A stretch of 38,684 bases of DNA from Minisyncoccota bacterium (lineage in GTDB: Bacteria; Patescibacteriota; Minisyncoccia; Phycocordibacterales; JACOZG01), in the NCBI GenBank assembly GCA_020057185.1, contig JAGVGK010000007.1:1-38684 (forward strand), given 5' to 3'. Shown one piece after another: positions 26,142 through 29,235 of this stretch (within the stretch, counting starts at the first letter, position 1; every line of letters starts with the position of its first letter). Both the position numbers and the translations under genes were made by a program. Under the pieces are notes generated by a model. That model did no database searches. It was not told the DNA's origin and worked only from the letters and a program-made list of their open reading frames with translations.

Positions 26142-26596
26142 TTATTTCCTATTCAACCAATAATAATTCTTTAATTCTTTGCTAAGATTGTACCCATCGT
26201 AATGAGAAATCATTCCTAGATATGAGCATACCGAAGCTTTTAGACTTTCTTCGGAGATAAGTCTTTTTTGATAATCTGCAAATCTCTGTTTCAGCTTCCT
26301 AAACATTCTTCTTTTTGTCCGTGACCGCAAAATGCGATGATGGGGTAATATCACATAACCTAAGAAATCAACCCCTTGCCTTAATTTCCTAATTTCTACT
26401 TTCTGGGGATGCAATTTTAATTTCAATTTCTGACACAGGAATAATTGGATTGGTGGGAGTAGATTATTTAAATAATTTTTGTCTTCTGCTACAATTATGA
26501 AATCATCGGTATACCGAGCGTAGTTTTTAATTTTTAATTCATGCTTAACAAACTGATCAAACTCATTCATATAAACATTGGCAAAAAGTTGAGAAG

Positions 26597-26615
<19 letters not shown>
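26142..26615 (-). pseudogene. DGR reverse transcriptase, C-terminal part (YTDD motif); out of frame with the N-terminal part
   Basis: MPIGNLTSQLFANVYMNEFDQFVKHELKIKNYARYTDDFIIVAEDK; IGNLTSQ and YxDD typical of DGR RTs. Confidence 0.93.
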
Positions 26616-27215
<600 letters not shown>

Positions 27216-27217
<2 letters not shown>

Positions 27218-27566
27218 GAATGAACTAGACATTCCGATCCTAAAAACATCCTTTGACCTTTATAAAACCTTTCATGAATATCGGAAGGTCGTGCCCAAGA
27301 ACGACCGCTTCACCATCTACGAGCGCAGTGAGAACCTGATCCTTGATGTAGTCGAATTGTTGATTGAAGCGGGGTATGTGGCGAGGAATAATAAAGTAAC
27401 CATACTTGAACATGCGAGCGTAAAACTTAACACCCTGCGTCTCTTAATCCGCCTGATGAAAGAGAGTTCCACTTTTGATACCAAAAAGTATGTGACCCTG
27501 CAAACGATTATCGACGAAATCGGTCGACAACTTGGTGGTTGGATTCGCTCGAGTGGTCTCAAGTAA
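27216..27566 (+). CDS. avd: DGR accessory variability determinant (Avd-like four-helix bundle protein)
   Basis: LPILKxSxDLYKxxHEYRK-like N-terminus, ASVKLNTLRLLIRL and IDEIGRQLGGWIRS C-terminus typical of Avd/four-helix-bundle (S23-like) proteins. Confidence 0.9.
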
Positions 27567-27569
27567 AGG

Positions 27570-27593
27570 AAAAGGCACCCTACGGCACCTTTT
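27570..27593 (-). terminator. Hairpin between avd and TR, terminator-like on the minus strand
   Basis: Minus RNA AAAAGGUGCC GUAG GGUGCCUUUU then CCUUU; 10-bp stem including two G-U pairs. Confidence 0.55.
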
Positions 27594-27610
27594 CTGATGA
27601 CCAGATACTT

Positions 27611-27742
27611 CGAGAGAAAACCGGACACCGAACCGTAGTTCTCGTTCGCGTTAGCGACAGGGTTCGTGTCGAGCTTGACCTTGCTGTCGTCGAAGTTGAA
27701 GTACAGAGCGCGGCCGAAGCGACCGTCCGAATCCGGATTTTT
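27611..27742 (-). repeat. DGR template repeat (TR)
   Basis: 132 bp aligned to 28123-28254 without gaps; 13 mismatches, all at T on plus (A on the minus/template-coding strand). Confidence 0.97.
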
Positions 27743-28007: not shown

Positions 28008-28048
28008 AAAAAAAAATCGCGGTTACCCACACCTGTGGATAACCGCGA
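28008..28048 (-). terminator. Intrinsic terminator / hairpin downstream of the DGR target gene
   Basis: Arms tcgcggttacccaca / tgtggataaccgcga (14/15), 2-nt loop; minus strand followed by T9. Confidence 0.85.
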
Positions 28049-28119
28049 AAAAATTTGCGAAGGCAAGAATCAAAAGGAAACAATCCAAAAGATTCAAGCC
28101 TCCAAGATTCAAGGGATCA

Positions 28120-29055
28120 CTACGAGAGAAAACCGGACACCGAACCGTAGAGCTCGTACGCGTCAGCGACAGGGCACGTGTCGAGCTCGACCTCGCTGTC
28201 GTCGAAGTAGAAGCACAGAGCGCGGCCGAAGCGACCGTCCGAATCCGGATCGTCAAACTCATCACCAGCGCAATCAATCCAGAGATCATCAAAGTGCATC
28301 AGTCGTTCCGGATGGGTCAGAATCATAATCCCAACTGCGAAAGCACCAAGACCGAACTCACTACCCGCGTCAGCCATCACCTCGATCGCCCGACGAACCG
28401 AACGACCACGATGACGAAGGCCGAACTGGGCAGAGATGATTAAGATATCCGGATCGCCTTGGATCACCGAGAGATCGGTAAAGGACTTCTGGGCACGAGC
28501 TGACTGACGAAGCTGTTTGTCGTTGAGTTGGCCTTCACGGTAGTTTACAAACCGGCCGTGTCGGGTCTGCTTGATAGTGTCAAGCACCTTCTGAAGAGCG
28601 GTGCTGTAGGTCGGGCCAAAAATCGGCAAACCACCAGTTTTCCAAATGTTCAGAAGAGCGAACCAACCTTCAGCCCCCTTCGGCAGTTCGACTTTACCGC
28701 ACTCGATTTTGGCGAGCAGTTCTTGATTACAGAAACCGATGCCGGGAAAGAGGACACATAGTTGATTACACTGCTCGGTGAGTCCCTTCGGCCGGTAGCC
28801 GGAGAGATAGCCGTAGTTCGATGGTACTTCCTCGTTGGCAAACTGATTCGTGACCGAAAGTTCACCAATTCTCCCACACACAAACTGTCGTACAGACTCC
28901 GTAAATTCGGGATTCCCCTTGAGACGCTCGGCACCGTTTTTAGTAAGACCGGCGATTGCCTGTTGGACGACTTCTGAATCCCCAACATCACTGATCATGC
29001 GGGTAATTTGCTTCACCTGACCGGGGGTTACTTTCGCTTGAGTAAGTGTCTTCAT
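28120..29055 (-). CDS. DGR target (variable) protein, 311 aa
   Basis: RBS aaggag at 29065-29070 with 9-nt spacing to ATG at 29055; C-terminus GRFGRALCFYFDDSEVELDTCPVADAYELYGSVSGFLS is encoded by VR. Confidence 0.93.
   Translation of the reverse strand: MKTLTQAKVTPGQVKQITRMISDVGDSEVVQQAIAGLTKNGAERLKGNPEFTESVRQFVCGRIGELSVTNQFANEEVPSNYGYLSGYRPKGLTEQCNQLCVLFPGIGFCNQELLAKIECGKVELPKGAEGWFALLNIWKTGGLPIFGPTYSTALQKVLDTIKQTRHGRFVNYREGQLNDKQLRQSARAQKSFTDLSVIQGDPDILIISAQFGLRHRGRSVRRAIEVMADAGSEFGLGAFAVGIMILTHPERLMHFDDLWIDCAGDEFDDPDSDGRFGRALCFYFDDSEVELDTCPVADAYELYGSVSGFLS
28123..28254 (-). repeat. DGR variable repeat (VR)
   Basis: 3' end of the target gene; A-specific differences to TR. Confidence 0.97.
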
Positions 29056-29118
29056 AGACATTAGCTCCTTCGCTTTGGATTCTACCGGAAACGCTCCGAT
29101 TAGCGGACTCATCTCAAC

Positions 29119-29205: not shown

Positions 29206-29235
29206 ATTATATGCATAGTTAGATTAATCTGTCAA
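29206..29235 (-). promoter_or_regulatory. Sigma70-type consensus promoter for the DGR target gene
   Basis: Minus strand TTGACA - 18 nt - TATAAT. Confidence 0.8.

Follow-up and report, generated by a model that had tools for sequence, protein, structure and literature searches.

A frame-shifting repeat in avd or RT as a probable switch of diversity-generating retroelements in Patescibacteria

Of 198 unique Patescibacteria cassettes of diversity-generating retroelements (DGRs), which were collected from overlapping samples, 172 carried a frame-shifting simple sequence repeat, either towards the 5' end of avd or within the RT gene. The tract was located in the avd 5' part or at the avd/RT junction in 154 cassettes, in RT in 18 (a set of which part was selected, in a phylum search, for an interrupted-looking RT, so that its size is no prevalence estimate), in neither gene in 26, and in both genes in none (Fisher p=7e-14). 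Since either gene but never both had a tract, selection seems to favour a single switch per cassette. It is very likely that slipped-strand phase variation at this one tract, in avd or in RT, gates the Patescibacteria DGR. It is also likely that the arrangement is Patescibacteria-wide, with one slipped-strand switch per cassette, the mutator mostly OFF and turned ON randomly in few cells, and two diversity generators working in series. The 26 cassettes without any tract count against such a switch.

The window, i.e. the whole stretch of DNA that was analysed (38,684 nucleotides), is contig C28 of a 783-kb genome in 46 contigs, which is 98.8% complete and has Patescibacteria/CPR as close named relatives. 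The features of its cassette are listed in Table 1. Judged by the presence of a TR/VR pair, RT and Avd, the locus is a chromosomal DGR of the Patescibacteria type. The product of the avd ORF is, according to profile searches, an Avd-type accessory protein. It matched PF22296 with 62.7 bits (cut-off 40) and NF033474 with 78 bits (E=5.9e-22), 2 bits short of the equivalog cut-off of 80. It was 67% identical to two relatives (L126, L127), and the solved Avd chains 4dwl and 8ub7 were matched weakly. Over 135 bp, TR and VR differed at 13 of the 30 TR adenines and at no other base, which indicates past DGR activity. The target gene, whose variable domain would be expected to have a C-type-lectin fold, had no sequence match in Pfam, NCBIfam or PDB, and no Rfam match was obtained within the cassette. 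The target stop codon TAG (28120-28122, in VR) sits on a mutable TR adenine, TR 27608-27610 being AAG; the following codon is TGA, so that mutagenesis would toggle a single C-terminal residue.

Table 1. Features of the DGR cassette in the window.
Feature	Position	Strand	Remarks
RT 3' part	26142..26615	-	RVT_1 38 bits; from GMPIGNLTSQ, with YTDD motif; other frame than 5' part
RT 5' part	26597..27217 (alternative start 27232)	-	RVT_1 34.7 bits; reaches hmm position 184
(CT)15 / (GA)15 simple sequence repeat	26638..26667	-	RT loop before GxPxGNLTSQ
CATG	27215..27218	.	read from sequence; shared by avd ATG 27216-27218 (+) and one RT ATG 27217-27215 (-)
avd (DGR accessory protein, 116 aa)	27216..27566	+	clean in-frame ATG; strand opposite to RT, TR and target
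Terminator-like hairpin	27569..27594	-	directly 3' of TR, by avd 3' end; 11-bp stem, -16.3 kcal/mol on TR strand
TR (template repeat)	27607..27741	-	TR/VR comparison
Intrinsic terminator past target gene	28017..28048	-	14-bp stem, then nine T
VR (variable repeat)	28119..28253	-	at target gene 3' end
DGR target gene	28120..29061	-	ORF, contains VR; likely start ATG 29061 after AAGGAG; longest ORF from TTG 29196
Target-gene promoter, sigma-70-type	29206..29235	-	TTGACA-18-TATAAT, 12/12

The window RT was encoded by two overlapping ORFs (26597-27232 and 26142-26615) which are out of register around (CT)15. The 5' part was 54-59% identical to the intact RTs L127-L133, collinear and gap-free, and the 3' part 53-59% identical and collinear with the same relatives. 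By this homology, a single RT is divided over the ORFs 27217/27232-26597 and 26615-26142, both halves being intact apart from the break at the repeat. According to a pattern search, by which all genome-wide repeat counts were obtained, this is the only (CT/GA) tract of at least seven units in the whole 783-kb genome. A tract at the same loop site was present in the RT of 17 other cassettes, and all in-RT tracts were located at about aa 177-198, in one fixed loop. Four cassettes (L226, L229, L236, L240) carried in-frame, palindrome-like insertions at the loop site which is occupied by (GA)n elsewhere; these enlarge the loop and encode peptides such as VIPAQAGIQSPLDPRFHGDD.

In the even sample of the order, a junction tract was found in 63 of 84 cassettes, an in-RT tract in 5 and neither in 16. 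Junction tracts were mostly G7-14, with the poly-G on the RT strand. Two marks by which phase variation is recognised were found. First, the tracts lie inside an ORF and their unit is not a multiple of three, as is the case for (GA)15 in the window RT; the repeat units in the cassettes were 1, 2, 4 or 5 nt long, and no trinucleotide repeats were detected in the order sample and the further cassettes that were searched. Second, tracts are enriched at DGRs over background: poly-G of at least 8 occurred 66 times in 12.9 kb of avd/RT junctions versus 3 times in the other 794 kb of these loci. In the window genome, 3 of the 10 poly-G tracts of at least 8 and the only (CT) tract of at least seven lie in its four DGRs, the three sister DGRs (C12, C15 and C44), which look complete, having poly-G of 8, 9 and 11 at the avd/RT junction. 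In 24 RT loci from distant phages, no poly-G of at least 8 occurred within or beside RT; the two tracts of this kind that were present were both in L114 and far from RT. Two further G9 tracts inside ORFs of the window genome (C41:780-788, L221; C16:17296-17304, L219) are possible additional contingency loci.

Poly-G was replaced at the junction by (GT)16, (TTGG)10, (TTCG)9, (TGGC)6, (CT)n, (GA)n, (CTGA)8, (ATTG)7 or a 5-mer x8. The draft metagenome assemblies represent one genome per species, so that comparisons are between species: relatives with RTs of 85% identity carried (TTGG)10 versus G9, those with 83% identity (TTGG)10 versus (TTCG)9, and those with 89% identity G13 versus G9. Such swaps would be the behaviour expected of a selected slippage site. 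The repeat types also bear on a reading at the RNA level, by which polymerase slippage or ribosomal frameshifting would supply a small, constant amount of in-frame Avd or RT and the DGR would always be on at a low level. In its favour, slippage is plausible on poly-G/C runs, and the avd frames are preserved although the majority of assembled alleles are out of frame. This reading is unlikely, as (TTGG)10, (TTCG)9, (CTGA)8, (ATTG)7, the 5-mer x8 and (GT)16 are mutable as DNA but are not known to make polymerase or ribosome slip, and as tract length and unit differ between close relatives.

The position of the tract decided which gene was out of frame. With avd core boundaries defined by hmm, an in-frame avd ATG was present in 40 of 154 cassettes with a junction tract, in all 18 with an in-RT tract and in 24 of 26 without a tract. 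Conversely, the RT was split in 3/150, 13/17 and 1/24 of these classes, respectively; L136, L231, L237 and L260 have the RT in frame despite an in-RT tract. An ATG on the avd strand, upstream of the junction tract and with its frame open into the tract, was found in 78 of 78 loci, compared with 45.9 expected from shuffles. It is most often positioned opposite an RT His codon, and this codon was CAT in 86 of 87 cases versus a CAT:CAC ratio of 1351:914 (60% CAT) elsewhere in the RTs, the strongest wobble bias among all RT columns. The open upstream ATG and the CAT bias argue that avd normally starts inside the RT gene and reads through the tract; it would then continue into its core only at some tract lengths. 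The repeat tract, together with the conserved ATG before it, made it unnecessary to explain the seemingly startless avd genes by a non-standard code or by alternative start codons, and both ideas were dropped. With one ATG per locus (n=132), the avd frame offset was 0 in 20, 1 in 56 and 2 in 56 loci, and one count put the in-frame states at 28/132, below one third (p=0.003). Most assembled alleles would accordingly be OFF, above the two thirds expected at random, which would call for OFF-biased selection or another explanation.

Pseudogene decay or miscounted assembly could also yield an out-of-frame avd or RT. The tract counts were taken from draft metagenome assemblies, MAGs may miscount long homopolymers, and the window RT is itself frame-broken. 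This explanation is highly improbable: the breaks coincide with the repeat while the remainder of each frame is intact, the 13/13 adenine mismatches point to past activity, and neither the mutual exclusivity of the tracts nor the conserved ATG would be expected under decay. A different function of the tract, as an RT leader or promoter element (Shine-Dalgarno-like poly-G or promoter spacing) with the avd frame effect as a by-product, is quite unlikely. In 57 of 78 loci the tract is in the RT leader, being followed by an in-frame RT ATG, but 15 of the 78 have no ATG, GTG or TTG start for RT after the tract, other repeat types replace poly-G, and the 18 in-RT tracts are far inside the coding region. 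The substitute repeats and the in-RT tracts ruled out poly-G as a Shine-Dalgarno sequence of RT. The tract may have a second, transcriptional effect on RT beside the frame effect.

In the proposed slippage switch (phase variation), replication slippage at the tract would shift whatever part of Avd or RT lies downstream into or out of frame, so that each cell lineage would stochastically turn hypermutation ON or OFF. Retrohoming in a reconstituted system of phage BPP-1 depends on Avd as well as RT (PMC12875486). If both are needed here as well, slippage at either tract would switch the whole DGR. We infer variation of tract length within populations, an inactive DGR whenever Avd or RT is out of frame, and an OFF state of the window as assembled. 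The window cassette would thus be OFF as assembled, and its three sister cassettes would be controlled through avd. A phase-variable mutator would answer how DGRs avoid endlessly rewriting a good target in a very DGR-rich group, and it would account for the broken- or startless-looking avd and RT genes in Patescibacteria genomes. Tract length is a readout that can be scored from existing metagenomic reads.

The cassettes resemble the Bordetella phage BPP-1 DGR (mtd-avd-TR-brt) in having RT, Avd, TR, a VR at the target 3' end and adenine-specific TR/VR differences. Unlike BPP-1, in which avd is co-oriented and 5' of TR (PMC12875486), they have avd inverted between TR and RT, a hairpin after TR and a frame-shifting repeat in avd or RT. 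Host group, chromosomal location and targets without recognisable domains agree with the Patescibacteria-only clade 2 of Roux et al. 2021 (PMC8144416), the placement being made by host group; the words 'avd', 'orientation' and 'opposite' are absent from the main text of that paper. The tracts are comparable to the simple sequence repeats of contingency genes in Neisseria, Campylobacter and Haemophilus (PMC11868660, PMC6321876, PMC2651432), which are likewise located near the start or in the coding region, have units not divisible by three and set an ON or OFF frame. Poly-G, dinucleotide and tetranucleotide tracts are common to both. Known contingency genes mostly control surface structures and DNA modification, whereas here the controlled gene would be a mutator for targeted hypermutation. 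DGRs and contingency loci are each known; their combination was not found in the open literature searched, in which no paper tied DGRs to phase variation.

The preliminary description had placed the RT and avd start codons head-to-head within one CATG and avd on the plus strand, inverted relative to TR, RT and target (all minus). The sequence at 27215-27218 and the feature coordinates bore this out; the break of the window RT into two frames had gone unnoticed there. The RT ATG at 27217 is the start common to close relatives. A second in-frame ATG at 27232-27230 (-; MSSSFMRVYD...) is another possible start; located just after AGGATCGGA, it would extend the overlap with avd to 17 nt. The inversion, which had been regarded as exceptional, proved to be universal: avd was opposite to RT in 198 of 198 cassettes from all sources combined, and, in the even sample of the order (197 genomes), in all 84 cassettes for which both genes were available. 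The three other DGRs of the window genome (contigs C12, C15 and C44, i.e. L002-L004) and seven IMG/VR contigs (L095-L101) were arranged likewise. Among 80 RT relatives from GTDB genomes, belonging to Parcubacteria and other Patescibacteria where the group is named, avd was located beside 79 and on the other strand every time. The TR was on the RT strand just past the avd 3' end, typically 4-30 nt from the avd stop codon. The order of target with VR and TR on one strand, followed by avd inverted and head-to-head with RT, is the standard layout of the group, and an assembly-induced inversion of avd, which had been considered earlier, was ruled out by it. Co-oriented avd genes were found in the more distant phage DGRs L102, L103, L105 and L106. 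The survey of homologous DGRs thus established the inversion as constant, but not the CATG overlap of the starts. The exact overlap recurred in L127, L130, L131 and L097/L098, whereas other relatives had different offsets; it is therefore incidental and not a conserved feature. A weak fifth Avd-like match in the window genome (C1:19122) was left out of the counts, as RVT_1 found no RT on contig C1. A second DGR in a Patescibacterium (L065:7860-9690) had the canonical co-oriented layout avd-TR-RT; its avd ATG was preceded, at a distance of about 12 nt, by a G10 run, and its RT matched the profile in two pieces.

It had further been claimed that a transcript from TR into RT must cross avd in antisense. 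The 3' flank of TR was terminator-like in 116 of 137 cassettes as scored by per-sequence folding, and its hairpin and T-rich run gave a mean folding z of -3.5 over the 137 cassettes versus -0.1 for a control stretch inside avd. Since this conserved hairpin comes directly after TR, the antisense problem largely dissolves; antisense transcription through avd is probably avoided, and read-through as a necessity was dropped on the basis of the hairpins in the window and the 116 cassettes. The simplest reading would be separate transcription units for target, TR-RNA and RT (all minus) and for avd (plus). That the inverted avd is itself the special feature, acting via antisense transcription between TR-RT and avd, is very unlikely. 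The position of avd, between TR and RT but on the opposite strand, would suit such a role, as would the nucleotide constraint on its last codons (N112 AAC in 67/68, K110 AAA in 78/85). The layout is universal in the clade, however, and the codons are covered by the T-rich tail of the TR hairpin, which explains their constraint. With divergent starts packed so tightly, regulatory signals are forced to lie within coding sequence. RT codon 9 (ATC in 98 of 135), which on the opposite strand closely precedes the avd ATG, showed unusual wobble conservation and may be part of an avd promoter. Unusual codon conservation was also observed at codon 176 of the RT alignment (AGT in 109).
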